A stretch of 64,000 nt of DNA. Origin: Porpolomopsis calyptriformis (Eukaryota > Basidiomycota > Agaricomycetes > Agaricales > Hygrophoraceae). Positions 25,333-48,209 of the stretch are shown piece after piece. The notes under the pieces are model-generated. The model saw only the letters and a list, made by a program, of their open reading frames with translations, made no database searches and was not told the DNA's origin. The position numbers and the translations under genes were made by a program. Each line of letters starts with the position of its first letter. Positions within the stretch are counted from its first letter, which is position 1. The DNA is taken from NCBI GenBank assembly GCA_951640195.1, contig CATOCQ010000002.1:1-64000 (forward strand). Reading direction: 5' to 3'.

Positions 25333-25461
25333 ATTGGAGGTTAAGATCGAGAGCTATGTTTGTGCAATAGTCGAGACAAAGTGTATCTACATTCACGTGA
25401 CATATATATAGCTGTGGGAATATAATACGAATAATCAACATTGGTCCGTAGATTTATTATT
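25333..25461. promoter_or_regulatory. Divergent promoter with central E-box
   Basis: The 129 bp between the ATG of the large minus-strand gene and the ATG of the plus-strand zinc-binding gene contains CACGTGA at 25,394-25,400, almost exactly midway. It is followed by catatatatag, a TATA-like run. Such spacing suggests shared control by a CACGTG-binding bHLH factor. This is inferred from motif position. Confidence 0.5.
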
Positions 25462-26827: not shown

Positions 26828-26899
26828 TACCTTACCATTCTTCTAGCTTATCTAATACCTACTATCCTTCACCGTGTTACTGCTAAAAACTCAGCTATT

Positions 26900-28050
26900 A
26901 TGTTCCCCTCCACTATAAAACAAAGTGCAACAGATCTAATGGATGGAATACTGAAAGCAAAGAGAATCGTCGTGCTCTGTGGTAAATCGACCCATCATCA
27001 TGTTTCATTCAAATACTTACCTACTCTCTAGGAGCAGGAATATCCGTGGCTGCAGGTATTCCATGTTTTAGAGGACCAGACGGCTTATATACTGGCAACG
27101 CACTATCTGGATTTACCGGAGTCAACCTGACTGATCTGCTTACTAGCTCATCCCTCGTAGTGAGAAATATATGTTCAAGTGAGGATTAGTTGACCAAGTT
27201 AATGTTCTAGACCCAAAAGCAACAATCACTGCATTGTCAGCTCATTGCCACCCTTGCTGAGAAAGCGGCGATCGCACAACCCACTGCCTTCCACCATTTC
27301 CTTCGTGCTCTAGACCTCCAAGGAGTGTTACTCCGTGTTTACACTCAAAATATCGATGGTTTGGAGCTCAAGGCTGGGTTACATATGTCCTCAGAAATTC
27401 ACCCCAGTGATGGACCAGCCCGATGCATTCCATTGCATGGATCCCTAGAGGAACTACGATGCCCTGGCTGCTCCTCCATTTTTATCCTCGAACCATACTA
27501 CCCCTCTTTGAAAGAGGGCCAACTACCAGAATGCACTGAATGTCAAATCAATATGGAAAAGAGGGTAGAGCAGGGCAAACGCAGAACGACTGTGCCTCGA
27601 CTCCGACCCAATATCATTCTTTACGGAGAACCACATCCTCGAGGAGAAGAAATAGCAAACGTGCAGCAAAATGATCTTGGGTTAACTACCACCCCCAGTC
27701 GCCAACTAGATCTTCTCCTTGTGGTTGGCACTAGCTTGAAAGTGAAGGGTACTACTGACTTTATCAAGCAGTCCGCTAGAATCTTAGCAAAAAATTCCCC
27801 CAAATCCAGTTTACAAGCATCGCCTCAAGTTATATATCTCAATAATACCTTTACAAACACAGCTACGTGGGCTGGTATATTCGACGCTTGGATAGACATG
27901 GACTGTGAAGAGTTTGCACGGTTGGCATTGAAAAGGATGGAGGAGATGATTGCGTCAGGTGAAATGCTCGAAAGCAACCACACTCAGGTTCAGGTTCTCT
28001 ATGGAGACAGAAAGCTTAACTACAGACCATCATGGAGGTTATGGTCTTGA
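26900..28050 (+). CDS. Sirtuin-family NAD-dependent deacylase
   Basis: Model: join(26900..26981, 27032..27156, 27211..28050), about 348 aa, both introns in phase. The Rossmann-fold signature GAGISVAAGIPCFRGPDGLY spans the first intron. It is followed by RVYTQNIDGLE, the catalytic-His segment PLHGSLEEL, two zinc Cys pairs (CPGC and CTEC), NIILYGEPHP, LLLVVGTSLKVKG and VIYLNNT. All residues normally needed for NAD binding and catalysis are visible. Sirtuins remove acyl groups from lysines using NAD, commonly on histones. Length and order match small class sirtuins. It follows the zinc-binding gene closely and may be co-regulated. The substrate is unknown. Confidence 0.9.
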
Positions 28051-28518
28051 TAAAATTACTGAATTAGCATCTATTACGCTGCATGCATGTCGCATCAAAC
28101 TTTCCACAAATATTAATCAACTTGTATTGCTGCATTCCAAGCTAGTTACTATATAAGTCTACTACATACGATTTGTGCTAAACCTGTGTAGACATGTTGA
28201 GCTGTGTGCAGGTGTAAATTAGCAAGTTCACATGCGCCACTCCCATCCCATTTTGGTATGCAAATGTGATGTCACGCATAACATATCAAGTTGCTTTGAT
28301 ACTGTATTGATTAACTCCCAGCTATCTTGTCTGTGTATGCGTGAATATCAACTAGCTGTTATGTACTTATGAAGTGATGTGCTATGAAGTGATGTGTGAG
28401 GAGCCTAAGTAGTGATCAAGAGCTGTGACTCACACACGAAACTACTTCCAGCACCACAATGGCTATACGCATGCGATTGAATGAATGCTTATTTTTTCAC
28501 CACATCTAGATAAATTTT
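28051..28518. other. Intergenic
   Basis: No gene is seen. A direct repeat of ctatgaagtgatgtg-like sequence occurs near 28,366-28,398. No terminal inverted repeat matching the far side of the large-gene module could be found by eye. Confidence 0.5.
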
Positions 28519-29669
28519 ATGCTGATTATCTTGTTTTCATGCAGTTATCCACCCACCCCCAAATGTAACTACCCTTGGAACCAAATGATGTGTTCTTCTC
28601 GATGCTTGGATGCGGATAATAATCGGTGGTCGAACGATCGCTCTCCTGTTCCACCAAGCGACACCATCTGGCTCTTTGAGGAAATCAGCCACCCTTTCAC
28701 ACAACCTGACTTGACCCTCAAATTGAACCAGCAAAAGCAGATCATTTTACATGCTTTTTGCAAAAGCAGAAACAAACATCGACACTACACTCTCCCTCTA
28801 TCGACCACACTTCAGATCGCTCTTCTTGACCTTGAATACTGGGCGAATGTTGCTAACCCTCATCCCAGTGCAAATCGTATCACACGTTACCTGGAAAGGC
28901 TCAGGTCTGATCTCTGGGTTGAGTTATCACAAAACCATGGCAGCTTTGGCTCTAGCTTCCAACCTAAAACGACAATACCGTGGGCAGTTAGAATGAATCA
29001 CTTTTTTGGCCACTCTTTCTTCGGCAGACGGGAGTACCTTCAGAAATGCAAGGCAAATGGGTGGACTCCATACACCCATGAAGACCCAACCTTATACCGT
29101 AAGAGGCAGCTTCTGCATACACAAGCTTCCCTTATCTCATCATGCTTTCCAATTCAAACTACATAGAATGGCATACTTTATTCGAAACCCATACAAACTG
29201 GCTAAGCAGGGGGTTCCAGCTATGTCTCCAGCAGCTAGAATCACACACGAAACCTCCCCGGTTTGACAGAGGGCACTCTGTGACCTGTGCGCTTGCTTTG
29301 TTCCTTGGAGTTAACGGTGAGAGTAAATGAAATCAACATCTTGGCTTAGGGATGCTCTAATGCTATATGCTTCTCTTTGCTACTGGCATCAATGAAAATA
29401 CAGCCCAACAGTGGGCTAACGATGTTCAGGAGAAGAATATCAACCCAGATTCCCATGGATACAGTGTAAATACATCATCACCTACCCATGAGGCTGATCT
29501 TGGGTAGGTCTGTAAGACACACATGGTTCACATTCACTCATTGTGATCATTTAGTATTTCACAGCTAGCAATGAATCTTTCAGCTGATAATGATCAGCCA
29601 GTGGGATCCCATGGTGCATTTCATTCAGATGAATTTACCAAGCTGATACTGATCCAAGATCCAAGCTGA
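28519..29669 (+). CDS. Shared-exon-domain protein A (no effector domain seen)
   Basis: The first exon (28,519 or 28,585 to 29,098) carries the repeated domain: LQIALLDLEYW, ITRYLERLRSDLW, then PWAVRMNHFFGHSFFGRREY and a GWTPY segment. It ends at TLY with a phase-1 donor. Downstream pieces, SNYIEWHTLFETHTNWLS, ATGINENTAQQWAND and ADNDQPVGSHGAF, lead to a stop at 29,669. Their joins are plausible but not proved. The domain is paralogous to those at 30.2, 34.1 (-), 39.5 and 43.0 kb (-). No catalytic C-terminal domain is recognised, so it may be a stand-alone adaptor or a decayed copy. Confidence 0.6.
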
Positions 29670-30156
29670 GATAGAGGGGGGGCAGCCTCAATTCTCCGAT
29701 AACAGTGTTACCATTCCTCCACGATTCGAAAGGAAGATGAAGACGAAGATGAAGACGAAGATGATAATGAAAGTTTCTTGATGTTTTTTGTTTTTTTACA
29801 TGCGAACAGCAGCTGCAAGTTACCATGGGACTTACAGATCATTGTAGCCACCTTTCCTCAGCGGTATACCTCACACCTCCACAATCTGTATCCTTCACTT
29901 CAATAAATTATAATGAGGATGATGGTTTTCACCGTAATATTTATAACTCCTTCAACCAGATGAAGGAGTAGTGGAATGAATCAAATGGCAAAGAAAACGT
30001 CAGGGCTTCTTTGTCACCCTCAAACTTGAGAATATGGCATTCATTTATAGCACATGATCTAATCCAAGTCCTGGATAGAATCATATCGTCTTTGTAGCTT
30101 TCAAACTCTTTAATCGAATAAATACCCACGTGACCCCCACACATACGTTCATTATC
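29670..30156. other. Intergenic; GAAGAC/GAT-rich microsatellite and E-box
   Basis: A purine-rich run of agatgaagacgaagatgaag-type units lies near 29,733-29,770. The right end forms the JmjC gene promoter. Confidence 0.6.
30127..30132. promoter_or_regulatory. E-box CACGTG upstream of JmjC gene
   Basis: CACGTGACC lies 25 bp upstream of the ATG at 30,157. The same core occurs close upstream of several other genes in the window. Confidence 0.45.
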
Positions 30157-32836
30157 ATGGCCACCCAACCGATAGCCAACAAAGAAGGAGAGCTATTTGA
30201 TGATGAGGCTTTATGGCCAGCCAAGACATCCACCCTCTTGAATAAACCGTCCAATTTCTGGCGCTTCTCAGAATTATCAACCCAAACAACATTCAAGCTC
30301 TTTTTCTACCACAACAACTCACTGCGATCTCGCGAAATACACATCCATTACCGCTCTATCCTTGCTTTCCTTGACCTGAGTCATCGCCACAGCTGCCTTG
30401 AAGCAGAGAACCAGGTACGACATGCAGGACGAATCAAACAGTACCTCCAGAACCTCTGTTTGGCCGTGCAGCATGAGTTGTGGTTTGAGGATCGTAAACT
30501 GCTCACTCAAGCATCATTGCGATTGAAGACGGTGAAGCAATGGGCCGTCAGAGTCTACCATTCATTTGGACACTCTCAAACAGGTCGCCAACTCTATGCC
30601 GATCGTTGCAAAAACGAGAACCGTCTGCCTTATGAAGATGACGATCCGACTCAATATGGTGAGTAATCTTATCAATATTGGGTGCAACAGCTGATATTAA
30701 ATCGCTCACTGAAGATTGGAAGAGTCACATATCCAGGGTCGTGTCATTTGGGAACGAGATGCTTGCGACCGACACTTGGTCAGACTCTCCAGCGACGGCT
30801 GGCACTTCAAGCGATGCCGCTCAAGAGAAATCTGACTCGCTGCAATATCTTATTGCGATCGGATTCATCAACCATCCCAATGAACTGGGCCAAGGAGTGA
30901 GCGCCGCTAGTCTTCCCCAAAAACGATCTTTGTCCGATGATGAAGAACCCACGAGTCGAAAAAAACATCAACCAGCTACGATATCTGGTATGTGAAGTTA
31001 TTCGCATCGCATCATCCTTATGAAGAAGAAGATAACGCATAACATCAGCACCCCTCACCCAGAATAAGCACGACTACTTTACTTCGTTGAGGGGAGTGAA
31101 CTTTCCCCAGGACGCATCCTCGATTCAATGGGCCAATGGGTCGCAAACCGTACTTCCATGGGTTCACGTTCCGGGCCATCAAAATGCAGTCCGTCCATCA
31201 TTTTGTGCTCGTTCTTGATCAGCTAACTGAAGCTTTGTTAAGGACGCTAAATTAGTTGAGGTGCTTGCCAAATCACCTGATGGTTCATCTGCAACCCATT
31301 CGATAAACAACTGGGACTTGGATGAAACTAACTATGTCGTTATCCCACCAAGAGAACCTTCCCAACCACTTCATGCCATCGATGAAGCCGTGCGACTCCA
31401 TCTCGCTAATCAGCGATGCATTATATTACAGGGTCAACATCTTGAAGGTCCGGAGACGTTTTGTAAGGAGGAGATCGAGGCAGCAAGGGGTCCATTAAGC
31501 CAGCCAGTTCAGTGGCATGGTACGTAAAATCCATCTCTACGATTACTGTGGTTTAATATTGTATAGACGCAAGATTGCGTGCAGTCGGTAGGTCCAAGAA
31601 GGAGTCAGATGGCATCATCCACAGCCACTCTTCCCTGGGGGAGTTTATCGAGGCATCTGAGGATGTAGACATCTGTGGAAATATCCTGGATGCCCCTTCA
31701 CTGAGAAATGCCGCCCCCTCTATTATATGGTAAGAGTGCTGAGAGCTTGTACATTGGCTTATTTCAACAAGTAACCTTAACAGTCGAATAAGTGACGAAG
31801 CACTCGCATTCCAGCTCACAAAACATGAATCATTCGCGAAGTTTTGGAAGCACCCTCCAAAGGACAAGTCGAAGCATCACAAGATGCCGAATACTCGACA
31901 AGAACTAGTCCTTCCAGGGCCACAGGTTATTCGGATGTGCACCTGGCAAATGATGCAGTGGAACCTGCTGATGCATGCTGGCTTCGTAACATTCCCCCAC
32001 AAGGATGCTAACGGCTTGTGTACCTGGATCTATGCGCACGCCGGGATAAAAATTTGGGCCATTATTCGACCTAGATACACAAAAAGTCACAACTCCCGGA
32101 ACAAGTTGCGCAGCCTGCACAAGGATATTTGCTTCAGTCAACTACACCAACTGAATCAACATGCTCAGATTTTCACGACGTTTCTTTCTGCAGGGGAGAT
32201 TCTGTAAGTTTTTATATTATTAACGCTCTAAAAATTGATTACTCATGCTCATATATTGATTCTATGTGTCAGAATTATGCCTCCTGGCATTTGGCATGCC
32301 GTATACACCCCCACGCCAAGCTATTGTTCGGGAGGTCACTTTTATACCTATGAGACGCTTCACCTCACTGAACAATCGCGGGACTTCGACCATATGCATG
32401 GTCATTTTTCAACAAATGCAAATCACCACGTCTCAAGGTTGCTTTCTCGCATGGTTTTAGCGCTTCCACATGTCGCCAAAAGTCGAAGTGAGCACGTGAA
32501 TGAATGATATCCCCTCATTTTTGTTTAAAAGCTAGCTTTCCAGAAATATATCGACGGCCATTCTTGGCGCTGGCCAGAATGATTCTCAAATCGAATGAGT
32601 ACCTTTTGCCGGGTGAGCAGAAAAGGCCAGACCTTCCGATGACCGAGTGGGATGTCCTTTTTCAGGAGGAAGAAGGAGAAATCAACGAGGCCCAGAAACA
32701 GATCAAGGCGATACTAGAAAGGGCAGGAATCAGCCTGACAGCTATGGAGTCAGAAGTACTCGTCAGTGGAGAGCATTGGATGGCGCTCAGTGAAGAAAAA
32801 TGTTTATCCACCGAACTTTTTCTTCCACCGCCATAG
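30157..32836 (+). CDS. JmjC-domain 2OG-Fe(II) oxygenase with shared N-terminal exon
   Basis: Exons about 30,157-30,658, 30,691-30,987, 31,049-31,181, 31,245-31,520, 31,566-31,730 and so on splice in phase to the stop at 32,836. Exon 1 is the repeated domain (LAFLDLSHRH, GRIKQYLQNL, QWAVRVYHSFGHSQTGRQLY), closing with a phase-1 donor after QY. The middle is low-complexity with KRSLSDDEEPTSRKK, probably a nuclear localisation signal. The catalytic part has PGPQVIRMCTWQMMQ, FVTFPHKDANGLCTWIYAH (H-x-D iron ligands), KIWAIIRP and MPPGIWHAVYTP (third ligand His). JmjC enzymes hydroxylate methyl-lysines, chiefly on histones, and that role is inferred here. No disabling lesion was seen. Confidence 0.78.
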
Positions 32837-34079
32837 GGACAGTTTCTATTCATTATCTATTGATGTGCTGCTATCATATGCCTGTACTTTGTTACAGTTT
32901 TACAATCGATACAATTGAGTTGGACTTTGATGCTCATGTCTCACGTGAAAAAAAAAAAACATACATGAATACATACATTACCTTGCCTGCGATGAAACCA
33001 ATTACAACCTCATGTAACCTAGTAGATATGCCGAACACAATCTGCTTTATTTACATATACAGAAAGGTGGCAGCTTCTGGACTCCCTATCCCTTAGGGAG
33101 ATAGAGCCCCACGTTGTACTTGCGGTTAGTGTTTGGCCCAGCAGATGCGCTACACCCTTGAAGCTATTATCTCCCTCGGTTCACCCGTGTGGTTGAATGG
33201 TTGGGTCGCGTCGGTTGGCTGGGTGGGTTGCGCGCAGCTAACTCAGCCTCTGTCTCTCGTAATAGAGCTGCCTTCATTTTCTTCTTTTTATTCCGCTTCC
33301 ACTTGTTTTGTTTGTAGTTTTTCCCTCGTTCAACCTGTGCTGTTGAAGTGGGAGAGAAATAAGAATAAGAATAAGTTAATAAATCAATACGCAATAAATA
33401 AATTCACGTTGAGTAGCCTGCCTACTTGGAGGTTCCGAGGTTCGTACCACGGCCACACGTGTAGATGATTGTCTGCTATACAGTAGTCAAAGGATGCTAA
33501 GTTATCGAGCGGCTGAATGAACTAACTTGTTTGGCTGCACGATGCATGTTGGCAATGGAGCCCTAAGCCTCTGTTCGATTTCGCCTGCGAATGAAGAAGA
33601 AATCTCCTCTGTGGCTGATCATCATCATCAGTCTAGATATTTGATATCTGGTGTGGCATGAGACCCATAGATCCCATTCACGTACCAGCTTTTGAGGTAG
33701 AATGTGCCAATGCGACATCCAATGGTGATTTATCCACATGTGTTGGGTCGATACTTATATCGAACTCAGGGATCTTGACTGTGGCTGATCGTTTAGTCAG
33801 GATATCTGATGTAGCATGAGAGCGATGGATCCCATTCACACACCAGCTTGTTGTGCCAAACAGGTGTCGCCTTTGTCGAGAAGGTCGGCTGCAGAGAGTA
33901 AAACGTTTGAAGGGCCCACAGAGATATGTTCCCTCGCTTTGTTCAGTGCGCTTGCAAGGCTGTCTATAATACGATGACCCGAATTCATCCAGGTATTTTG
34001 TTTTTTATATTTGTTGAAAATATCTGTCCATCCTATTATAGAACGTAGTATAAACCATCAGGACTTTGGGAGCGATTCA
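32837..34079. other. Intergenic, no gene supported
   Basis: This contains an A-run (32,948-32,959) and repeated phrases of the type gtggctgatcgttt...gatatctgatgtggcatgag at about 33,610-33,660 and 33,780-33,820. The last is a local direct duplication of about 45 bp. Short frames show no motif. Confidence 0.5.
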
Positions 34080-34601
34080 TCACGTACGATATTCCAATGG
34101 GTCGCCATGCATATAACTCTCCCAGCCCTGTTCTCTGCATGTGGTGAGATAAGCGTCACGGTCAGGCTTTGAGTGGCCAAAGGAGTGCATCGTTCGAACG
34201 GCCCAAGGCCGGGTACTCCAAGGTTGTTCATTAAAGCTGGAAGGGGGTTCCATTGCGAAGAATTCTTCAAGGAGGTCATCCCTTAGCAGCTCTAAATAGC
34301 GCGACATCGATTTATCTCCAGAAACCAGGCTAGCCCAATATTGAAGATCAAGAAACGCAACCTGTTGGCACAGCATGAATGGCAAGGAAAAGTGGCGAGA
34401 CTGATTCGTGATGATATTAAAGGCAATGAATTCCAATGGAAAATACTTCCAGCGTATCTTTGTGTCGGAACCCATCGGTTTGAACAGGTAGTTCTTTGAA
34501 TTCTCCAATTCAAATAGACACAGCCAGCTGCTTGGTTGAACCTCTGAGATGCCATCCTGCCATCTATGGGTATCGTTGAGAATAAAATCGAGATCTGCCA
34601 T
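34080..34601 (-). pseudogene. Shared-exon-domain protein C, first exon only
   Basis: From the ATG at 34,601 the frame encodes MADLDFILND, QQVAFLDLQYW, MSRYLELLRDDLLEEF and RPWAVRTMHSFGHSKPDRDAY. It ends at LEY with a phase-1 donor at 34,088. No continuation into an effector domain is recognised between 34,080 and 33,000, so the copy may be truncated or its later exons unrecognisable. It stands opposite in orientation to the JmjC gene, 1.2 kb from its 3' end. Confidence 0.6.
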
Positions 34602-35839
34602 TGGATTCGGATTCGGTAGTGCTTTCGGAACTTGTGAATGTTTGTTAATCCTATATTTGGTAGGTGTTCAAATCGAGCCCAGCATAACTTATGCTTGGCT
34701 GCGCACTTCAAAAGAGGCAGTTTGGACAATCGTGAGTGTAATTATAAAAGAAGGATGAACCATAAAATCAAGTGAGATGTTGAGGTCATCTCCATTGGAA
34801 CTAAAATCGATGAAATTTTATCACCGAAGGTCTCTTTTTCTCGTTTGAATAGTAGCGACTTTCTCATTGTATTACAGCATTCGTAACTGAAATTTACTGA
34901 TAAACAGATCAACTGGCACTGATTCGTGGTGATCATGCAATGATTAGATGTACTTTGGGCATGGTGAAGTCAATTTAATGTAGACTAGTCAGCTGCCGCC
35001 TTAGCTAAATGTAAGTTTTCCAATTTGCCAATGATCCGCACCTACAAACCTACTCTGTGGTATTGTTTTTCAGTAACTAGAAATTTTCATCACTGAAAAG
35101 ATGTGAGGGGGTGATTGAGTGATTTAGTTACTGTTTTTCGTTGATTTCCCTTCCCTTCCTTCCAACAGTCTCATTTTGGCAAAGGTTTGCTAATGTCTTC
35201 AACCTTATCGATAGCCTGTATTATGGAACGCAATACTTGCCTGCTAAGAAAACTTTAAATGCCGTCAATCTACGACATGCCAAGGTAAAGGGCCTCGGGT
35301 ACACCTAGTATAGCAACATAAGATTAAAGTACGGCTGAAAGACATCTTTGTGCTTCTTCAGACGACTCAGAATCACTTATTTCTCACTTTGTAATGGAGC
35401 GTGACTGCCATCCTTGATGATGTTGGAGAAGCGGTGAATGGTTTGCACCTTGGTGAGTGGTCATCTGGATACCAACACAAAAGGTCATAATGAAAATTCA
35501 ATTCATAGGGAATATCCGACGTGCGTGAGCAGATGAAATGTAGGAAAAGAGAGTGCGGGAGTGAGAATGGGTACGAGGGCCACCCTGAGAAGAAGGTAAA
35601 GAGGAAGTTGGCTAAGGGAGAACAAGGTGGAATCTACAGACGGGAGGGATGGCAAGGGTCACCATCCATGCTTCTCTACTGCATCCGAGAGATTGCGTGC
35701 CGAATCTTGATAACCATATTATTCAACACAGGGGCCTGATATTCAGATTTTTTAATGAAAGCCTTACCGTTCGATCCCAACCTCAGCATTTCCATCCTCT
35801 CGCCGTAACCGTTTGAAATCGTTTTGATCTCTCTGACCC
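34602..35839. other. Intergenic with dispersed repeat
   Basis: No gene is seen. A 72-codon basic frame at 35,521 lacks support. The dispersed repeat at 35,216-35,310 is described separately. Confidence 0.5.
35216..35310 (+). repeat. Dispersed ~100-bp repeat, copy 2
   Basis: It matches 908-1010 (and 50,189-50,291) in the same orientation: both have gcctgctaagaaaacttta, aatgccgtcaa and ggtacac blocks. It is not attached to a dioxygenase gene here. Confidence 0.75.
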
Positions 35840-36405
35840 CTAACCATCAATCCCATGGCTCTCCGTCGACTGTGGTCCAATGGGGTCATTATCAGTCCCC
35901 GGCTGGGTTGGCGCAGTGACGATCCCACAGTGGATTGTTTGCTGGATCTCTTCGGCTATCTTGCCATCGCCATCCGTTGTCGACTGGGTGTTTACCGACG
36001 GCTCTGCTATGGTTGTCATCTTCGTGTTCTTTGAATTGACATAGACGGTCGGTAGTGTTTCTTCAGTTTCCTCATCCGACAAAAATTTGGCCTTCCATTG
36101 CTTTCTTCTTCTCGGGCTGACAGCTTTGGGGATGTTCATCTCATTCGCCTAACACGTCCCCTCTGTCAACCTGAAAAAAAGGAAAAGAGCAAGCTCACCT
36201 GGTGATGTTGGGCAGCGTGACTTTGATTCCCCGCAGATCCTGGTCCCATGGGGTTTCCCTCACCCTCCATCTGGTCTGAGGTCATAACCCTCTGAGATTG
36301 AGATCTAGTGGCCAAGTGAGGCGACGCGGACACAGTCATGAAGAAGACTGCTGGAGATGGTCGTAGTAGAGGACCGTTCAGGTTCACCCTGTCAAACTGT
36401 GGCAT
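35840..36405 (-). CDS. Small hypothetical protein, two exons
   Basis: The start is MPQFDRVNLNGPLLRPSPAV at 36,405. The first exon ends NQSHAAQHHQ, and the second resumes ANEMNIPKAVSPRRRKQW and runs to the stop at 35,840 (HGIDG). The intron is GTGAGC...GTTAG. It is rich in Ser/Thr/Pro/Gln with a basic patch RRRKQWKAK, consistent with a disordered nuclear protein, but no family is recognised. A CACGTG sits 17 bp upstream of its ATG. Confidence 0.45.
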
Positions 36406-36421
36406 TTTAAGCGACCCTAGC

Positions 36422-36427
36422 CACGTG
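36422..36427. promoter_or_regulatory. E-box CACGTG between divergent genes
   Basis: This lies between the small minus-strand gene (ATG at 36,405) and the plus-strand F-box gene (ATG at 36,521). Confidence 0.35.
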
Positions 36428-36520
36428 AATAATCGATTTTAGTTGAGAGTGAGTCAAAGCGTCGAGGTCGACTTAGTATATAGAGCAGCCGAAAGTCTCC
36501 CAAAACCACCATCATCCATC

Positions 36521-37324
36521 ATGATTTCCCTTCCCATAGATCTGTGGCTCAAAATTATCCCCTACATTCAGAACTCGTCCCAAGATCTGCTCGCACTGGC
36601 ACTAGTAAACAGGAACTTTGCCTCCGTTGTGTTTCCATTCCTGGCCCGATACATGCTTGTCGATCCAATGCCAAAGCCGCAACACCCGATTCGTTTCCTT
36701 GAATTCACCTCCATCAGGAATTGGCACGGCGGTTGGGTTCAGCAAAATTTGAAGAGGGCTGGGAGCAACCTGAGGGTCACCAGGTTGGGATTCAATACGT
36801 CCGGTTGTCAGTGTTTCAGGTTATTCCTATGTGTCTGGGTTTTATCGCTAACCCCGCATGAAGATGACTGCGTCGAACTCACGCACCTAAACTTTTTCCA
36901 CAACGTGTGGCTCAGGGAAGTTACCCTCTCTGGATTACGACTAAGACGGCCGGGTAACGTCAACCTAATCGATATCTCGAGGATATTTGCTGGATGTTCT
37001 ATGGAAGATTTGACCAAGTTCACTCTCGATCTTACACGGGCCAACTGGGATAACTGCATCAAAGTCAATTGGGCCCTCCTCGACGCATATCTTTCCTCGA
37101 GACCTTCCCTTCAATCTGTGCACATTTTAGGCCCTCTGTCTGTGATGGAGGTCAGCGATATCATGCCACTGGTCACCGCGAAGGGCATCCTTGATGTCAC
37201 GTTCAGGCCAACTTTGCCGGAACCATCGGTACCATTGGTACCATGGCCATCTATATCTGGGCGGATACGTAGGAGGAAGTTTCGAAGAAGGAAGGGGAGT
37301 GGAACGGGGCAGGATACAGGTTGA
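36521..37324 (+). CDS. F-box-like protein, right-facing copy
   Basis: A single exon starting MISLPIDLWLKIIPYIQ, an N-terminal F-box-like helix pair, followed by LLALALVNRNFASVVFPFLA and leucine-rich, LRR-like segments (LREVTLSGLRLRRPG, LQSVHILGPLS). F-box proteins recruit substrates to SCF ubiquitin ligases. The target is unknown. The C-terminus is very basic (RRKFRRRKGSG) and is not shared with its paralog at 38,101-38,844, from which it differs throughout by scattered substitutions, with about three quarters of residues identical. It forms the left arm of an inverted pair. Confidence 0.65.
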   Translation: MISLPIDLWLKIIPYIQNSSQDLLALALVNRNFASVVFPFLARYMLVDPMPKPQHPIRFLEFTSIRNWHGGWVQQNLKRAGSNLRVTRLGFNTSGCQCFRLFLCVWVLSLTPHEDDCVELTHLNFFHNVWLREVTLSGLRLRRPGNVNLIDISRIFAGCSMEDLTKFTLDLTRANWDNCIKVNWALLDAYLSSRPSLQSVHILGPLSVMEVSDIMPLVTAKGILDVTFRPTLPEPSVPLVPWPSISGRIRRRKFRRRKGSGTGQDTG

Positions 37325-38100
37325 ATAGGAACGGGGCAATGTTATCCTGTAACAATCTGTTGAAATGGATCCGTTATGACCCTGGCTGATACTGACCAGT
37401 CCGAAGTGGAAGATATTGTCCTCTTGAGACTACCCAAGCCGAAGTCAGAGAACACAGAGAGAGATCGTTGTCATTGTTACTACATACATTTGCATCTGTG
37501 TCTACTTTTTATATGTATGCGACATCAAAGGGGTCAGGGCTTTGTGATCCTTTGATAGCACAATAGCCGATTGGTTGTTTGAAAAGATAGTTGAGACGGG
37601 ATTGGGCCAAATACTTCACCAATAAAGGTGCGGAGCCATAAGGCTTCCTTTGCAGCACGAGTTGCTACATATTTAGCTTTAGGGATCTCTCCGATGGGAA
37701 ATGGCAGGGCGAATCTGCGTGGGTGACAAAAGCAACAGTTCGATATTACTTGCAGCCGCTGCGCAATCCAACAATCTTTCTTCTCAGTAATATCGTGCTA
37801 TCAAAGGATCACAAAGCGCTTCGCTTTGTAGGTTAGACCCCTTCGATGTCGTATACATATAAAAAGTAGACACAGATGCAGCAACAATGACAACGATCTC
37901 TCTCTGTGTTCTCCGCCTTGGGCTTGGGTCGTCTCAAGAGGACGATATCTTCCAATCCAGACTCATCAGTATCAGGCAGGGTCATCATACGCGATCCATT
38001 GCAACAGATGGCTACAGGATAACGTCACCACATTCCCATTCAACCCGTATCCTGCCCCCTTCCACTACCCTTCCTTCTTCAAAACTTCTTCCTGCCTCGC

Positions 38101-38844
38101 TTACATACCCACCCACGATAGGGATGGCCATGGTACCGATGGTTCCGGCAGGGTTGGCATGGATGTCACCCTAAGGATGCCCTTGGTGCCAATCAGTGGC
38201 ATGATATCGTTGACCTCTATCACAAACAGAGGGCCTAAAATGTGCACAGATTGAAGGGAAGGTCTCGAGGAAAGATATGCGTCGAGGAGGGCCCAATTGA
38301 CGTTGACGCAGTTATCCAGGTTGGCCCGTGTAAGATCCAGAGTGAACTTGGTCAAAGCACTCATCAGACATCCAGCAAATATTCTCGAGATATCGATTGT
38401 GTCGTAGTGACCCGGCATTTTTAGTCGTAATCCAGAGAGGGTAACTTCCCTGAGGTATAAGTTGCAGGAAAAGCTTAACCGCTCGAGTTCTAGGCAGTCA
38501 TCTTTATGCGGGATTAGTGATAAAGCCCAGACATATAGGAATAAACTAAAACACTGACATCCGGAGACATCGAATCCCAACCTGGCGACCCACAGGTTAC
38601 TCCCGGCCATCTCCAGATGTTCCTGAACCAAATCGCCGCCCCACTCCGAAATGGCGGTGAACTCAACAAGGTGGATAGGGTGTCGCGGCTGTGGCAATGG
38701 ATTGACAATGGCATATTGGGCCAGGGAGGGCAACACAGCGGAGGAAACATCCCTATTCACTAGGGATAGTGCGAGTAGATCCCTGGGCCTGTCCTGAATG
38801 TGGGAGATTATTTTGAACCACAGCTCTAGGGGAAGGAGGATCAT
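38101..38844 (-). CDS. F-box-like protein, left-facing paralog
   Basis: A single exon starting MILLPLELWFKIISHIQD and keeping the same landmarks as its partner (GCQCFSLFLYVWALSL, LREVTLSGLRLKMPG, LLDAYLSSRPSLQSVHI, MPLIGTKGIL). It ends WPSLSWVGM, shorter than the partner. The frame is open, which with many substitutions between the paralogs suggests both arms have been kept under some constraint. Confidence 0.65.
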   Translation of the reverse strand: MILLPLELWFKIISHIQDRPRDLLALSLVNRDVSSAVLPSLAQYAIVNPLPQPRHPIHLVEFTAISEWGGDLVQEHLEMAGSNLWVARLGFDVSGCQCFSLFLYVWALSLIPHKDDCLELERLSFSCNLYLREVTLSGLRLKMPGHYDTIDISRIFAGCLMSALTKFTLDLTRANLDNCVNVNWALLDAYLSSRPSLQSVHILGPLFVIEVNDIMPLIGTKGILRVTSMPTLPEPSVPWPSLSWVGM

Positions 38845-38934
38845 GATGGATGGTGGGTGGTGGCTTAGGGAGAAAGTGGAGAATTGGGGTCGAGAAAAAA
38901 TGAGGGGATTTTATAGTTTGGATGCCACGATTAT

Positions 38935-39275
38935 TGTGGCTTGTGGCAAACGAGCTCTGCCCACGCTCACTGTCGATTGGCTTGGTTTTCTCGCCCCTTA
39001 ATTCTCAGACCGCGGTAGGTTCATGTCCTGTCAGCGAACGCTGCATGCGTCATACAGTTAGTCAGTGCTACACAGCGCTATGTTACCATTCACCTTCGGT
39101 CGGCCTGGTTCTTGCCTCTTAGCTTCACTGCACCACAATGTATCACCACCTTTTAACCAAGTACACTCTGTTCGGAACAGAGCGGTTCGGTTCAGAGGAG
39201 TACACTGAAACTCTGTTAGACTGCTCTCCAACCTTTGCTTCAAACGGAATGCATTTATTTCAGCCAGGCCTCTAA
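38935..39275 (-). repeat. Inverted diverged copy of the 3.5-4.3 kb element
   Basis: The reverse complement shares the near-palindrome ctctgttc(n)gaacagag, the ctgaaat...cattc boundary and gaaaaccaagccaatc phrases with 3,540-4,340. The 219-bp satellite proper is absent here, so the element can occur without it. Confidence 0.65.
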
Positions 39276-39502
39276 GTGAACGCAAGGGAGAAGGGCAGGT
39301 AGAAGAAGGTGGCAGGATCAGGATCGAATGGCGCAGTGTTATTCCACAGTTGTCCTCTACTTTTTAGCTCAATCTACAGCTCCATCGACTCAATACGGTA
39401 TATGCAGTGAAGTATAGCAGGCGTAGCTGATAAATCTCGACAAACAAACCATACTTGCCCCGATCACTTTAGTGCATCTTGCTAAATCTCTTGATAAAAT
39501 CC

Positions 39503-41509
39503 ATGGAGACTGATTTGCATGCTCTCGAAACTAGCTGGTGGCCTGTTGGAAAGGTCCTGCAGGCCACGGTTCCGCTATCCTCACGATGCTATATCAAAAA
39601 CACCACCCAGGATGGACTCATGTCAGTCCAAGCGGCCCAACATATTTGTTCTCTCCCGATAAAGTGGAGGCCAATATTCACCGTCATTGACTTGTGCCAG
39701 CTTCAGCTGCAATTTCAAAAAGAGGATGGAGGGAGTCATCTTGGAAAGTTGATGGTATGGTATGACATGCTTAGGACGTATATCATAAAGGAAGCGCAAA
39801 GAGAAAAGCCTGCGTCTGGCAGTCTTTGGATTCCTGATGTCGTTCATCGGTTCTGTGTTCGACTGGAGCTAGGGAAGGCCCACCAGCCCAAAAAACTCAA
39901 AGCATTCGAAGCCGAGCTTAGAAGCCATTATTCTTCCAGACAACACTGGTGGTATGGTAAGATATCGATATTTTCAAGGCTAGGCTTGAGTAATAAATGC
40001 TTGTATACCCAGACCTTTTATCCTGGAAGCAGAGCAAAGAATTCTACTGGCTTCCCCAAGTCCTAAAATCCGTTGATCCTTTCAGTGACCGATCGAATTG
40101 CACCACCTGGCTTGACGGTTTCGAAGCAGACTGCATCTTATTTGGGTTCACCAATCGTTTGGAGGCTGTCGCGATCTCCTCCGTGGAACTTGAGCGTGTA
40201 CCTGAGCTTGAACTTGGACCTGGGTATGAACACGAACACGAATATGAACAAGATGATAACGATCAAGGTGAGGGTGAAGGTGAAGGTGTGTGATCCTGAT
40301 GTCAATTCGATAGCTTGTTAAGTACTTATCATTCAATTAATTTCATGAGCTCCAAAAAGGAAGCGAGGACGCCCACGCAAGGACAAGCATGTTGAATTAT
40401 CTAATGATTTCCCCAAAGCACGGATTCTGAGGAGTGGAGAGAGGGTTGCATCTTGCCCTATGGATTTCTTTCAGACCCTCCCTGCATTAACGGGGGGTGA
40501 TGTCCCCAGAAAAAAGGCCATGAGAAAGGTACCGACTATGTTATTTTTCAATGGCGTCATATTCACCATACACAGAGAATTCAAGCGAATACAAAACCAG
40601 AAGCAGAAGCAGGCGTCTCAGCAAAGTCACTACCTGCTTCTCCTGGCAAGGACTTCCAGGTTTGTTTGTAGTTTTATGTTTGTATTTGAATGATTTGTAC
40701 AGGTAAGACGCCCTAAGCAGCCCTCATTGGCAAGGCGTATACCCTCCTCAGCTATACCATCTGTGAATCACCCTCAGCAGGTGGGTCTTATCTTCTTCAT
40801 ACCTAGTCAGAAGCAATGGCGATTTATCCAAGAATTCGTCCAGAAAAATCGAAATCGAAATCTATCCGAAAGCCTGCTTGTAGGTCTGGATCCAGAAATA
40901 GAGGTTGAGAAAAGGAAAAGGGTATAGTATTTTCCCCATCATGTGCCTCGTGTATGCTTATATGTATGTCTCCTAGGATACGAAGGGGAAGGGGCGCGCT
41001 ACAGACACCACTCTGGTGGGTATCAGGCTTGCATTCGAGTCATTCGGAGTACAAGTCCAGATGGATGGTGACGGTAGCCATCCTTTTTCTTCTAGGTCGT
41101 GGATGATGGTCACGATAAGCTAGAACCAGAACCCATCCCACGTTGGGTGAAATTGCTCCTTCAGCCACTCAGCGGTAATGCAGATGACCTCGCAACCCAC
41201 CTCCTTGATCTATCGGATGCAATGAAAGGATACGACAAGAAAGGCATATGGGTCGATTTGTCACACTTTGATGTAGACATGGTATGTCTTTCTGTCGAAT
41301 ATGGGGGTATTGCATCCATCCATTTTTCTGACTAGATCAAGAATCTGGTGATGGAGTGGAAAAAGCGACAAGACTTGGCAAATTTCACTATGTTTGAGGA
41401 CAACGACGAGTTGGTTTTCATGAAGAGAACGTTCAAAGGCATACACGCCCTCATTGCCAAAGGTGCCATGCACAACTTTCATAAGTATGTTGAGGAAATG
41501 ATGAAATGA
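39503..41509 (+). CDS. AT-hook protein with shared N-terminal exon
   Basis: The ATG at 39,503 (METDLHALETSWWPVG) opens the shared domain in diverged form: TVIDLCQLQLQF, LGKLMVWYDMLRTYI, VVHRFCVRLELGKAHQPKKL. It has the same phase-1 donor after WWY at 39,956. Later exons give EFYWLPQVLKS, an acidic EHEHEYEQDDNDQ run, then KRKRGRPRKDK near 40,355-40,390, a canonical AT-hook. They continue through QVGLIFFIPSQKQWRF and PRWVKLLLQPLSGNADD to the stop EEMMK at 41,507. The hook binds the minor groove of AT-rich DNA. The rest is unrecognised. It is convergent with the Ulp1-like gene. Exon borders after the second exon are approximate. Confidence 0.6.
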
Positions 41510-41643
41510 AGACAAGGTTGCGATGCACAAATGAATAGAATGGCTGAATGAACGAATGCTGAACGAATGCTGAATGCTATTACAGCTAATAAAGCTACCC
41601 CATCTTCAGACAAAAACCAGGTGAATAGTACAGTGAGTGTATA

Positions 41644-43251
41644 TTAAGATTCCTTGCGATCGCCAATCCTAAGCTTCCCAGAAACCAGCTCCATGATCAT
41701 CATATTCCGAAAATCAGCAACATCAGCCTCTTCCAAAACTGAAGGTATAGCCATACCGTTGACCAGCCACTTGAGATATTGACAGGTATACACCCCGCAA
41801 TCTGTGGACCCTTTTTGTTGCGGCACAGACATATCTGTTTCGCAATTCCACCCAGAGAGATTATAATTCACCTCAGTGGTGAGATAATCGCTGACAGCCT
41901 TTTTCGACACCTGTCAGCATTTAATCAGGAACTCTGTGGCTTGAAAATCTCACTTTAATAATGCCTGCCCGGGTCTTCGCATTTCCGCATGCAGTCATAC
42001 TATCATAGAACTCCCAGCGTCGATCCGTGAAGTTCATCCTCAGCAGCAGCCAGTGATTTTGGTTTTGGTTTACGGGGATATAAAGGGACTTCAAGGTTTC
42101 CAACGTCTCGTTGATGGAGGACAAAGCAGCTGCATACCATCCACGTTTGACCTTTTGGCCATTCTTGGTAACCTGTCAGATCGATGGAAGGAAGGAAACG
42201 TTTGGGAAAAGGGCTTACCAACTCTGCAGAGAGCAACCTTGTTGCGCCACCATAATCCTTGTGGTCTAGGTTTGATACCTGAGGCCAGAAATATGTCGAT
42301 ATCAGTTTTACTTCTTTATCCTTATTCTGAGCCCGACAGAGATCGATGTATGAGCCTAGGATAGAGTCATCCAATTCGGCGCCTGGGTTAAGCTTTTGTA
42401 GAGCTTTGTGGTCAACGAGGGAGGTGGAGCGTGGGCATACCAAGGATGGGTCTGCAAGCAGACGTATCCAAGGCATCGTGGAATGCTCTTCCTTGGAGAA
42501 AAAGGCATAGATCGGGGTGTCGACAAATTTCAATGGTTTGTTTGCCTCTTTTACACCAAATAGTTAGTCTTCAACAAGCAGAGAAAACGCAATGTCTTAC
42601 CAGCTGCAATAGTACTGCTTGGGCATGCTCGCAAAAACACATGGAATTGCCAGGCGTAAAGTCTTGTCTTTTTCTCTGGGAAGCCTAGGTGGTCTTTTGA
42701 AATTTCTAGCCACCTGGGCAGATAAAGCTGGACACTGGGGGTTTTTAAAGCCCTTTCCCACTCTGCGTGTCAATTAAAATTAAAATCGAAGCGTGAATAA
42801 ATATCTCATTACACTCACCGTCCAGAGAGGGTGCAGGCATGCCTTCATCCTTCCAGGCACCATATCTCTTAATGAGTTCCATAAAGTCATTGCGGCCCTC
42901 TGGGATATGGGTGCATCCACAGAATGTTCGCCATAGCCATGGGGTGAGGACTTCAGGCGAGCGCAAATTATGCCCCTTCACCCCCTTGAAGTAGTCCTCT
43001 ATGGCAGCACGCAACCGAGTGTGGTAGTTGTAGTTATGGCTGCACTGGCCAGTAGCACTTGTATGCCAATACATGTAGTGCGCATCAAAGAGCGCAAGCT
43101 CGAATGCTGGGAGGCCATCATCATGCAATTCGCAGCATATCGTGCCTATCCAGATGAAATTACGTCCAAAGGTCCATTTAGTGAACTTGCTAACGGGGGG
43201 GGTTGTCGACTGATTCCAGAGGCTTTCATCGTTGGCGAAAACTTCAGCCAT
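41644..43251 (-). CDS. Ulp1-like (C48) cysteine protease with shared N-terminal exon
   Basis: The first exon, 42,818-43,251, starts MAEVFANDESLW and carries the shared domain (AFELALFDAHYMYW, TRLRAAIEDYF, LWRTFCGCTHIPEGRNDF). It ends with a phase-1 donor at SLD. Later exons include AWQFHVFLRACPSS, DSILGSYIDLCRAQNKD and the protease core: QNQNHWLLLRMNF (catalytic His), WEFYDSM (Asp), then QQKGSTDCGVYTCQYLKWL (Gln and catalytic Cys), ending at 41,644. Ulp1-family enzymes process or remove SUMO. The full catalytic set is present. Frames between exons agree with GT-AG introns, but two internal borders are not fixed. It is convergent with the AT-hook gene 135 bp away. Confidence 0.75.
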
Positions 43252-43434
43252 TCCTTAATTCCAGCTTAAGTTGATTCGCGTACACTAACGGAACCCACAC
43301 ATAAACACTCACCTCACAAAGCGACTCTATGTGAGGCTTCGGGGTTTCCTAGAAATCCTTATAGGACTAGCCACCAGTTCACTTTACTTCACTTCTTGCA
43401 GCCTTCGTTTGCCTGTCGATTAAATCAAATCACG
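43252..43434. other. Promoter side of Ulp1-like gene
   Basis: No coding signal. It carries the left target-site duplication of the retroelement fragment at 43,422-43,434. Confidence 0.4.
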
Positions 43435-43589
43435 ACACAACTCATGAAACTCACTGCGTGAGCCAAAGCCCTGGGACAACCCACTTATAAGGCTGCGAAC
43501 AAAGTTGCAGAGTTGGTTGTGTATAGTAATATAGAACTAACTAGTGCATCTTAGCGCATACATTTGCTGAATTCAAAAAAAAAAAAAAA
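43435..43589 (+). mobile_element. 5'-truncated LINE tail with target-site duplication
   Basis: About 155 bp ending in a run of about 17 A is bracketed by the 13-base direct repeat aaatcaaatcacg (43,422-43,434 and 43,590-43,602). The inserted sequence (actcactgcgtgagccaaag, then ccctggg) matches the 3' UTR of the element at 47,316-48,199 (gactcactgcgtcacccaaag). This is a dead, severely truncated copy made by target-primed reverse transcription. Confidence 0.88.
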
Positions 43590-43598
43590 AAATCAAAT

Positions 43599-43604
43599 CA
43601 CGTG
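43599..43604. promoter_or_regulatory. E-box CACGTG, 55 bp upstream of PHD gene
   Basis: It lies in TCACGTGAGTCT, directly abutting the poly(A) end of the retroelement fragment. The same 12-base string follows the other retroelement at 48,209-48,220. Confidence 0.45.
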
Positions 43605-43659
43605 AGTCTCTTTTTCCTTAGCGCCGTTACAACAGACTTTTCATACACGATTAGCTGCA

Positions 43660-46600
43660 ATGCCCCATACACAATCAGCGACTAGCAACTTTCATGGGGA
43701 TGATTACTCTGATAGTGATTCCTCCCAAGGCAACCCACCCTCTCCGATGAATATCTCCCCGACCCAAGGCCACACAACCAATCAACCTTCACCACGCTAT
43801 ACCCCTGAACCCAATGAAGGTGGTTGGAATCCCAACGATTTCCTGAACATCTCACCTTCTCCCAAAATTTCTGCACGCGGCATAGAGTATGAACAAACAA
43901 ACAAACATATCTTTATGTCTCTTTATTAACATATCATCACCAACTAGTACGCAGCCAAATGCCCTCATCCACCAACCACCCCTTACCCAAGCCACCCAGC
44001 CTCCTTCCGATCCTGGCCAAGAGCGCCAAGTAGGTGAACAGACCCACCAGTCGGCTCCATCTCCATCTACCTCCACATCTCGGCCCATCGATCTCACGAA
44101 AGACAAGGCCGACTCACACAGGTATGTATTGGATCTGATCTGTGGCATAGCATAATGACCCACATTCTGTGGTAGTCTAGAGCCATTGTTGGCAGCATTG
44201 GAACAGGTGCAAGTCGGAAACAAACTAACGCTCGCAACATTTGAAAATACCGGCAACCAAGCCACCGCCCCAGCCCAGCCCATTCCTGCATCCAAACCCA
44301 CCGCCCCTGCCAAACCCGCCGCCCGAGCCCAAACCACCGCCCCAGCTAAAACCGCCGCCCGAGCCCAAACCACCGCCCCAGCTAAAACCGCCGCCACCGC
44401 CAACCCTGCTGCCCCAGCCAAATCCGCCACTGTCAACCCCACTGCCCCTGCCAAATCCACCGCCCCTGCCAAACCCGCCGCCCCAGCCCAAACCACTGCC
44501 CCAGCCAAACCCGCCGCCACCGCCAACCCTGCTGCCCCAGCCAAATCCGCCCCCCCAGCCAAATCCGCCCCCCCAGCTAAATCCGCCCCCCCAGCCAAAT
44601 CCACCGCCCCTGCGACACCTGCCGCCCCTGCCAACCCTGCCGCCCCAGCCAAGGATACAGCTAATCAACCTGCTGCTGTGATGCGCGGCAGTATAGCAGA
44701 GAACCAGCCCGAGTTCAATTTCGACCTCGGTGACTTGGCAAACATTCCATGTACATCATCCTACATTGTTTCTTTGATGAACAGTTGTTGACATTACACA
44801 CTCTTTTTAAACAAAGCAACCAGCTCGAGCGGAGGCAAGCCAACATCACCTCCACTTCAGGATGAAAACTTCGGCATTGATCCGATGCTCACAGCATCAT
44901 CTTCAATCAACAACCATCTGTTGCCTGCATCCTCCCCCTCCCTGGATCCACCATCTCAACCCAATGCGAAGCATGTGGGTGCAGAGAGGAGGAGTTCGTC
45001 AAGTGGAGCGACGAAAAAACAGACTTCCAACCGTGTGCCCGAGAAGAGGAAGAGGAAGGCTGCTGCAGGTGGCCGTGCAGTGAAGCGACGGCGCTATGGG
45101 TTTCACACGTCAACCTGCATCACGGATGCACTGCCAGGAAACCCTGGCGAAGACTTTCTCCATTCATTGGAGAACATGGATAAACTGACGTCGGAAACGG
45201 CATCATCATCTCAAGATGATGATGAAGCACAAGGCAAGGGGTCGGCAAAGATGGTAAGAAGATGGGAGGAAAAATAATTTATTACGAGTCCCGCTAATAT
45301 GCTGCATGTTTTGGATAGTTTTGCCAATATTGTAGTGATGGTGGGTCATTTGTGGTATGCAGTGAACCAGGGTGTGGTGTCATGCTGTGTGTTTCCTCGG
45401 ACTCGACTGCGTGTGTCCAGTGGGATGTTCCTGAGGGAACTCCATGGTACTGCCTGAGGCATTGTCGCCTCAAAAAAATACTTCCCAAGGTTTGGATCTA
45501 CTTCATGCAAGACAACACCACTGATTTTCCTTCTTCAGTATACAATCAACTCACGAATAAAATCATTCTTCCACGGGGGGAGGGTTATAACCCCCCTCCT
45601 CTACATCCACATATACACATGTGAGGCAAGAATGGTCAAAGAGACACTAACCGCCCCGAATATCGCAGGGCGATTGAAAGACTTTTACAAGCACGAGCAG
45701 GATGACCAGGTGAGGGACGTTTCCTCGAATGACCGAGTGATTTAGGCTTATGGTATTCTATAAACAGCTCCAGACTATATACGTTTACTTGAATAATGGA
45801 CGCACTCTCAAAGCATTGCGCTCACAAGCGGTGGAGTGGATAAAGCGATTCCCGAACTCAGCAGTCCTTGTCGTCCTTGAAGGCCATACTACAGTTCAAA
45901 CGGGGGAGTTAGTCTACGCATTCCCAGGGGCCAAAACCAACCGCCACGCCCACATCACCGAAGTAAGTAGTTGTTGGAGGACTTCATAAGAAGATGCTAT
46001 CGTCGAACTGGAGCTGAACCGGAACCGGTTTCCCCAGATTCTACGCGCTACTATGCAGGATGCATACGATCCCGTGTTTATGCAGAACCCATCAATCAAG
46101 GGCTTGATTGCCCTGTGCTGTGGGCACACATTTCACCACGAGGGAAGTCTACAGTCGTGGAAGTCCCTGGTTGAAAGGTATGCAGGATTTCCCTCTTCCC
46201 CTTCCCCTTTGCGACTTCTGCCCAACAATCAATAAACCGTTTTATCCCTCCTTCTAGTAATATCTTCACTTGGGTCATTGGATTCTCCGCAAAGGTGTTA
46301 TCGCCTATCAAAGTCACATCTGCATTGCCATTATTCGTTGAGCTGGCATTCCTTCAGCAAGAGAAGAACATGCAGGATGTGGAGGAAGCGCTGCATCGGT
46401 CATTTGACCGAGTAGACATCCTCTCACACACACCCGTCCTGCTCATTCGTGCATGGAAGGGATCGGAATCGGAATCAGGAGGTGACATTTCCGTCACGCA
46501 ATTCGCGCTCTCCAACGAGGACTGCCCATGGGGATTGGATCCTCCGGCATGTCCGACATGTGGTGTGGGCTGTTTTGTAACATCAAGCATGCTTGATAAG

Positions 46601-46810
46601 AAGGGCGATTGGTGCCGCCTTTCATGTGGATTCTGCAAGTCGCGTGTGCAGAAGGTTCGTCGACCTAACTTTGTACAGGACTGTGACAAAAAGCACTTGC
46701 GGCCATACAAGTACTGTATTTTGCCGTTCCCTGTGCCACCTGACGCCTGGGCACACGCTAAGTGGAAGGAAGGTGGAAGGAAGAAGGTGGGCGAAACCCA
46801 ATCAACATGA
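43660..46810 (+). CDS. PHD-finger protein with possible caspase/CHAT-like domain
   Basis: Exons 43,660-43,886, 43,948-44,121, 44,176-44,750, 44,817-45,253, 45,319-45,489 and later ones splice in phase. The N-terminus is disordered and contains about 30 Ala/Pro/Lys repeats (PAKSAPPAKSAPPAKS type), then basic KRKRKAAAGGRAVKRRR. A Cys-rich finger follows: FCQYCSDGGSFVVCSEPGCG and TPWYCLRHC, PHD/ADD-like. Next comes TPLLYIHIYTCEA, SAVLVVLEGHTTVQTGELVY, then GLIALCCGHTFHHEG and FTWVIGFSAKVL. A strand ending Gly-His and a later strand ending Cys-Cys-Gly, followed by a VIGF segment, is the order of the caspase/CHAT peptidase fold. A second Cys cluster (CPTCGVGC, CRLSCGFCKSRV) ends the protein. The protease reading is inferred. 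Confidence 0.62.
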
Positions 46811-47300
46811 GTGGTGTGGACCTGCCCATGTATACGACTATATTGTACCACATCTTCCTTTGATACAAGTTGCCTCCTGAGCATGGGGCAGTGTTCGATA
46901 GTATCCTCTGTGTGATCAACAGATAAGACCTTCCTTTGTTGCAAGTCTGAGCATCATCTTTTACAAGCTTCTTCCAAGTTCAGTGTGGCAGAGGCCAGCA
47001 TTTATTGGTCAAAATCTAGTATTTATATATCGGTGGTATGTTGTTCGCAATACAGTATTAGGCCCTGCCTATTCGCCCACACCCATCCTCATTCCCGCCG
47101 TTGACTCTGATCCTCGCCTTGCCTGCTCCTTCTCAATCTTTCTCCCCTCCCGTCATGTATTTGGATAGTATTCTCGGCTACTGCAGCTTAGTAGGCCAAG
47201 TCATTGATACTGATTAACTGAACTGGAACTGAACTGTGACTGGAGGCAAAGAAAGAAGGGAACGTTAATCGAAACATTCCTTTCTACAGCCTTTCTACAG
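46811..47300. other. Intergenic
   Basis: No gene is seen. It may contain the original 5' exon or leader of the dioxygenase gene, now separated from it by the retroelement. Confidence 0.4.
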
Positions 47301-47315
47301 AAATGTGTGTCACGT

Positions 47316-48199: not shown

Positions 48200-48209
48200 A
48201 AATGTGTGT

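Follow-up and report, generated by a model that had tools for sequence, protein, structure and literature searches.

The Y' elements of yeast are a subtelomeric gene family borne on a repeat. Subtelomeric RecQ genes are reported from fungi that include Agaricus bisporus var. burnettii, and fungal RecQ-like telomere-linked helicases are protein-coding repeats at chromosome ends, some of them with identical proteins (PMC7473861). TET/JBP genes occur on DNA transposons of fungi (Kyakuja, Zisupton, Plavaka, and others), and it has been proposed that they help their carriers evade methylation-based silencing (PMC12730594). In fission yeast, the JmjC protein Epe1 limits heterochromatin partly through an N-terminal part that is distinct from its JmjC domain (PMC6576747). 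Here, we describe five genes (genes 1 to 5) within a 64,000-nucleotide stretch of the Porpolomopsis calyptriformis genome (positions 1 to 64,000 of contig CATOCQ010000002.1, assembly GCA_951640195.1; "the window"). Sequence comparisons support the view that one domain family heads all five genes, which then continue into different ends, two of the five having no recognized effector.

Contig C16 (219,000 bp), whose first part the window covers, is a tandem array with a period of 49,281 bp; 1.3 units (the first at 1..49281) fall within the window. As with the RecQ-like repeats, protein-coding units lie mostly near the ends (here, contig ends), some with identical products; in contrast to them, no helicase was found among the 20 window open reading frames (ORFs) scanned, and the ~49-kb unit instead carries chromatin- and SUMO-related genes and a common new module. 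The TET/JBP-bearing transposons are likewise repeated fungal elements with a TET/JBP-like oxygenase gene, but here the arrays are long and tandem, and the same 20 ORFs include no transposase. A term search of the main text of PMC12730594 turned up no Ulp1, JmjC, or AT-hook.

The first module exon of each gene is exon A (E1 to E5 for genes 1 to 5). A sequence-only reading of this DNA had proposed five such exons ending in a phase-1 splice donor. All five are present in the window, and all five donors are indeed in phase 1, a whole codon plus one base preceding each. Read directly from the DNA, the donors are TATAC C/GTAAGA in gene 1 (exon end 29,098, plus strand), TATG/GTGAGT in gene 2 (30,658, plus), TATC/GTACGT in gene 3 (34,088, minus), TATG/GTAAGA in gene 4 (39,956, plus), and GACG/GTGAGT in gene 5 (42,819, minus); only the last end had been misplaced, at 42,818. 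Counted from a plausible first methionine, exon A measures 144 to 172 residues, so that the size of about 130 residues first given for the domain was too small, and the module also runs on into the next exon. For gene 4, our splice-and-frame script favored a donor at 39,989; we kept 39,956 because P0010, a relative from a protein collection, reads Tyr-Gly-Lys at that point. A phase-1 N/GT donor, if read through, would give Arg, Gly, or Ser after the module's final Tyr, and by eye, in protein letters, 9 of 12 outside relatives agree (P0001-P0008 and P0010); P0012, with C-K after Ser, may fit, and P0009 and P0011 show no clear fit. Across 17 aligned module members, three columns are invariant (D63, R120, and H127 in E4 numbering) and one Trp is nearly so.

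Are the five exons one family? We compared local alignment scores with 500 shuffles per pair. E1, E2, and E3 are clearly related by sequence: z was 23 for E1-E2, 43 for E1-E3, and 16 for E2-E3, and 0/500 shuffles scored as high for any of these pairs. The seven pairs involving E4 or E5 were weak (z -0.6 to 2.5). The protein collection held eight outside relatives of E1-E3 (a second round returned the same eight) and four of E4/E5, with open frames at 36-78% identity. Against a first profile of 11 sequences, E5 scored 5.5 bits, higher than the best of its own 500 shuffles (4.8), with the caveat that 1 of 500 E4 shuffles reached 8.9. Profile-to-profile comparison of the E5 family with the E1-3 family gave a score of 35.9 against a shuffled-column maximum of 22.5 (0/200 as high; separate P 5.5e-5). 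The two groups are also tied together by an off-array paralog at C2:3,434,230-3,435,006, whose DNA occurs at a single place in the genome. It first surfaced as a weak E5 match (34%, E 0.011); the E1-3 profile matches it at E 2e-14 and the E5 profile at E 8e-7. From the profiles and this bridging paralog, E5 appears related to the other members.

E4 is more distant. Its score against the first 11-sequence profile (2.8 bits) fell inside its own shuffle range, and there was no excess over controls against the E1-3 family profile (152/200 as high), the E5 family profile (81/200), or the two combined (39/150 as high in local and 35/96 in global alignment). Once the bridging paralog and second exons had been added to the profile, E4 reached 26.6, whereas the best of 100 column shuffles scored 18.5; in global alignment, 1/95 was as high. 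Exon A of gene 4 alone scored 25.7 with this extended profile, and none of 52 other window ORFs exceeded 17.9; hence, the second exon of gene 4 adds nothing to the match. The relative P0010 alone scored 17.4, within controls (reversed pair, 13.1). Sequence similarity thus lends moderate support to E4 as a distant family member. The proposal that all five exons are one domain therefore holds plainly for E1-E3 and by profiles and paralog for E5, at 43.0 kb, and with moderate support only for E4, at 39.5 kb, which rose above controls in the extended profile only.

The similarity does not stop at the shared donor. Exon B begins QWHTLF, DWKSHI, RWTDIF, and EWERAL in genes 1, 2, 3, and 5, an x-W pattern, and these starts are alike: 0 of 20,000 shuffles did as well over the first 6 residues, 0 over the first 10, and 6 over the first 20. 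This test took in those four genes and left out gene 4, whose exon B begins DLLSW. For the four, the acceptors that we chose by eye were also the top models of the splice-and-frame script, which is blind to homology. Compared pairwise at full length, the second exons show no significant likeness (the best pair was reached by 57/1000 shuffles), so conservation in exon B is concentrated at its start. A 50-nt intron with a GC donor (TATG/GCAAGT) interrupts the off-array paralog at the same position and phase, and DWHNFI follows it; we picked its acceptor by eye, knowing the motif, and the nearest AG upstream of it is in frame and would add three residues before the W.

In the five gene models, exons A and B together amount to 198-258 residues, and the shared donor is inside this two-exon module of about 200-260 residues, not at its border. 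Since similarity runs past the donor, the intron was probably inherited, and the exon shuffling at that point put forward in the sequence-only reading is not supported; of the two marks of an exon-shuffled module, a common donor phase is seen in 5/5 genes, but the module border does not coincide with the intron. The simplest reading of the sequences is that the module would have descended, together with its intron, from a common ancestor.

Beyond the module, the genes diverge. Gene 1 (28585..29507, plus) consists of exon A at 28585-29098, exon B at 29167-29316 (or to 29322), and a last exon from 29404, and encodes 255 amino acids (aa) in the short model or 294 aa in the model that the script ranked first. 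Gene 3 (33836..34601, minus) has exon A at 34601-34088 and exon B from 34032; it encodes 236 aa in the short model, with a stop at 33836, or 329 aa in the script's longer model. In genes 1 and 3 (longer models) and in the off-array paralog, no Pfam match was found beyond one at E 0.22, and no effector was recognized.

The remaining three genes carry JmjC-like, AT-hook-like, and Ulp1 ends, which had been named as JmjC, AT-hook, and Ulp1. Gene 5 (41644..43251, minus; exon A 43251-42819, exon B 42762-42601, then 42547-42219, 42172-41954, and 41910-41644; 469 aa) matches Peptidase_C48 (PF02902, Ulp1/SENP) at E 1.5e-20, with 74.4 bits against a cut-off of 20.7. Like the Ulp1/SENP proteases, it has SENP1-like NHW, YDSM, and TDCG stretches, NHW and TDCG aligning with HW and SDCG of SENP1; we take the aligned His and Cys to be the catalytic positions. 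The best-scoring stretches of 23/23 PDB matches to gene 5 lie within residues 316-461, and none covers the N-terminal module. Gene 2 (30157..32836, plus; exon A 30157-30658, exon B 30715-30987, and six more exons predicted after it; 768 aa) gives a JmjC match that falls slightly short of its cut-off. Its best PDB match is KDM2A, and HKD and WHAVYTPT align with the HxD and HAVYTPT of that protein; the HxD...H residues are presumably the Fe(II) ligands. This would place gene 2 near the KDM2/JHDM1-type JmjC proteins, as far as a best PDB match allows, and we take Epe1 to belong with the same type. A difference from KDM2 and Epe1 is the N-terminal module, for which the libraries that we searched gave no match and which genes other than the JmjC one also carry. 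The AT-hook was seen by eye only: gene 4 (39503..40693, plus; exon A 39503-39956, exon B from 40013, last exon from 40350) contains KRKRGRPRK, an AT-hook-like motif for which a Pfam scan at E 1 gave no AT-hook match. As modeled, genes 2 and 5 have additional introns between exon B and their effector domains, which are located downstream.

The module itself is not named by any library that we searched. All 17 members were scanned against Pfam-A, where the best match was BBS1 in two members (E 0.0048) and none came near cut-off, and against NCBIfam, where the best was E 0.031 in one member; PDB sequences gave no match naming the module. An AlphaFold model of exon 1 (E1), a structure prediction that the sequence-only reading had called for, has a predicted local distance difference test score of 81.6 and a predicted template modeling score of 0.76, and shows three strands and a set of helices with no confident fold match. 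The earlier suggestion of a possibly undescribed domain family thus stands; a weak fold match to a predicted model does not show that the fold is new.

All five genes ride on a high-copy repeat that lies mostly near contig ends, which is not visible from one window. The two unit copies in the window differ by 3 mismatches in 14,719 bp, and further along C16 by 0 in 10,000 bp; the stretch with E1 recurs on this contig at 28519, 77800, 127081, and 176362. We searched the assembly (33.5 Mb, 17 contigs), scoring 150 of 184 candidates for E1, E2, and E3. E1 has at least 62 copies at 98-100% identity, 0 with an internal stop, and among the matches listed there are at least 58 for E3 and at least 30 for the E2 module. 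E4 has 54 full-length places at 93-100% (plus one 79% relic and one fragment), E5 has 46 places at 91-100% (plus five partial, relic, or remote matches), and the JmjC exon has 60 places at 97-100% (plus eight weak or partial ones). For the last Ulp1 exon, 54 places are listed, 51 of them full copies (95-99%) and the other three relic, partial, or remote; none has a stop. The distance between neighboring E1 copies varies from array to array: examples are C8 (24.0 kb), C2 (25.1 kb), C5 (29.3 kb), C16 (49.3 kb), and C1 (52.0-52.6 kb).

Among the E1 copies, 2 lie on C15 (111,872 bp) and 4 on C16, both small contigs, and 56 on the large contigs C1-C14. Of these 56, 54 are within 350 kb of a contig end, the deeper two being C1:3,554,617 and C9:546,875. 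Gene 1 points towards the near contig end in 50/54 end-proximal copies (exceptions: C9:1,862,591, C9:1,913,206, C9:1,994,019, and C13:1,525,259). The telomeric repeats (TTAGGG)4 and (TTTAGGG)3 were found nowhere in the assembly, and at least two contigs, C6 and (by eye) C1, begin inside array genes; hence, that the arrays are subtelomeric is something we infer. Among the outside relatives, P0006 (E1-like) and P0012 (E5-like) have a longest contig of 48,285 bp for both, and the genes may be linked in another fungus.

The copies split into two classes, a main one and a diverged one, the latter at seven places (C1:3.55 Mb, C4:0.1 Mb, C7, C8:2.1 Mb, C9:0.53 Mb, C9:1.98 Mb, and C15:0.07 Mb). In the four diverged copies that we compared (C9:0.53 Mb, C1, C4, and C7), unit positions 35,338-49,281 plus 1-3,201 (~17 kb) are inverted and 92-97% identical, and the adjoining stretch with genes 1-3 is ~99% identical, a difference that fits continuing homogenization of the collinear part. 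Short-word comparison of the two end regions of the inverted stretch gave no match longer than 10 bases. Weak JmjC-exon matches (29-31% over ~53 residues, E 0.006-0.15) occur at C7:24643, C9:518816, C9:1965995, C8:2111472, C4:87719, C15:56941, and C9:614703. Six of the seven lie ~9 kb beyond E4 of the diverged unit, perhaps marking another JmjC-like gene.

Other ORFs share the unit. A Sir2-family ORF (27211..28050, plus; PF02146, E 1.3e-23) adjoins gene 1, and just upstream of it a weak PHD-finger match below cut-off (26330-26827, plus) is possibly part of one gene with it. A TET/JBP-like oxygenase ORF (95..847, plus) matches PF12851 at E 1.4e-6, with 28.1 bits, under the cut-off of 34.9, and is found at 38 places, one of them an 86% relic. 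An alpha-kinase family match at 2583-3272 (minus; E 2.4e-8) is above its curated cut-off. Two weak F-box-like ORFs lie in opposite orientation (36443-37324, plus, and 38101-38910, minus); one stretch of each compared diverged copy aligns to both (~74% and ~93%), so that they look like an old inverted duplication. At 19977-24403 (minus), two large adjoining ORFs of 949 and 535 aa have no Pfam match; the 949-aa ORF has no PDB match and is nearly identical in at least 48 places (48 scored of 75 candidates). At 14477-17288 (plus), ORFs include an SGSGKT P-loop-like stretch, reminiscent of Crinkler-type NTPases; the two of them scanned have no Pfam match.

What might the module do? One N-terminal module followed by three different chromatin- or SUMO-type ends, together with members that have no recognized effector, suggests a docking part with exchangeable effectors. 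By analogy with the proposal for TET/JBP transposons and with the N-terminal part of Epe1, we propose that the proteins may act on chromatin, possibly that of the arrays themselves. Our preferred reading, held tentatively and at somewhat less than even probability, is that the genes are paralogs of one repeat-borne family, whose two-exon module was inherited with its intron and docks different effectors, probably at chromatin. The single-copy chromosomal member, with no recognized effector, belongs to the same family. Three of the five genes would have gained a further part after the module, namely a KDM2-like JmjC oxygenase in gene 2, a SUMO protease in gene 5, and an AT-hook-like tail in gene 4. 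As a nuclear docking part, the module would most likely take the effectors to a single shared site, probably chromatin and possibly the arrays of the repeat itself; genes 1 and 3, in which no effector was recognized, would be partners or competitors. Loss of histone methyl marks and of SUMO there would oppose silencing. In favor of this reading are the homology of the exons, the matching intron of the off-array paralog, the effector matches, the open last Ulp1 exon, the Sir2 and TET/JBP-like ORFs of the unit, the location and common orientation of the copies, and the outside relatives.

Several observations weigh against this reading. The predicted fold of exon 1 has no confident match, which leaves gene architecture as the one ground on which docking is argued. 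The invariant D, R, and H and the nearly invariant W could equally belong to an active site, and the isoelectric point of the two-exon module ranges from 5.5 to 9.0, with no sign of a common DNA-binding surface. When the window is compared with the four diverged copies, the module exon has a pooled ratio of nonsynonymous to synonymous changes (pN/pS) of 0.48 in gene 1, 0.24 in gene 3, and 0.29 in gene 4, but of 0.82 in gene 2 and 0.89 in gene 5; these last two values fit weak constraint, the numbers of changes being small and shared among the diverged copies. The JmjC match of gene 2 (PF02373, E 2.1e-4, 22.1 bits) is under its cut-off of 24. Gene 4 beat its controls only in a later profile, after earlier profiles had failed.

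Perhaps, then, this is an ordinary paralog family in a fast-evolving chromosome-end region, whose genes duplicated and diverged together with their intron, with effectors acquired by chance fusion and no common docking role, the module being an enzyme or a scaffold with gene-specific partners? We consider this unlikely, but it is the strongest competitor. It would sit well with the common intron inside the module, the members without a recognized effector, the lack of a fold match, and the weak constraint in some module exons. However, each of the three ends, recognized or suggested, suits a role in chromatin or SUMO biology, and the unit also holds the Sir2 and TET/JBP-like ORFs. A bolder reading, to which we give rather less weight, is that a selfish chromosome-end repeat (module spacing ~24-53 kb) encodes a chromatin-editing kit of its own, with a histone demethylase, a SUMO protease, and a DNA binder beside a sirtuin and a TET/JBP-like oxygenase; the docking module would steer these enzymes to the repeat, keeping it expressed and spreading.

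A decaying or inert repeat, whose intact frames reflect recent copying and gene conversion and not function, seems improbable. Copies of E1, the 949-aa ORF, and the JmjC exon are indeed 97-100% identical, and 22 of the 218 full copies of E3, E4, E5, and the JmjC exon, counted among the matches listed, carry stops, 7 of them outside the diverged class. However, stops are found mainly in the seven diverged places (15/28) and rarely elsewhere (7/190). Moreover, in an 88% identical relic on C11 the last Ulp1 exon is open, while the other four gene-5 exons carry 4, 2, 1, and 2 stops, and the outside relatives keep open frames at much lower identity. Least probable of all is that recombination through the phase-1 intron joined a single 5' exon to different 3' exons: the identical donor place and phase in five genes, the dissimilar full-length second exons, and a gene 4 second exon that contributes no signal would suit such shuffling, but the start of exon B is conserved in genes 1, 2, 3, and 5 and fits in the off-array paralog, and the effectors of genes 2 and 5 lie downstream, past further introns.

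The function of repeat-borne genes at fungal chromosome ends is mostly unknown. Here, a single library-unmatched module connects three proteins, a JmjC-like oxygenase, a SUMO protease, and one that is AT-hook-like, on a repeat that is present dozens of times. This offers a concrete way of testing whether repeats of this kind govern their own chromatin, and it adds a new domain family that can be sought in further fungi.

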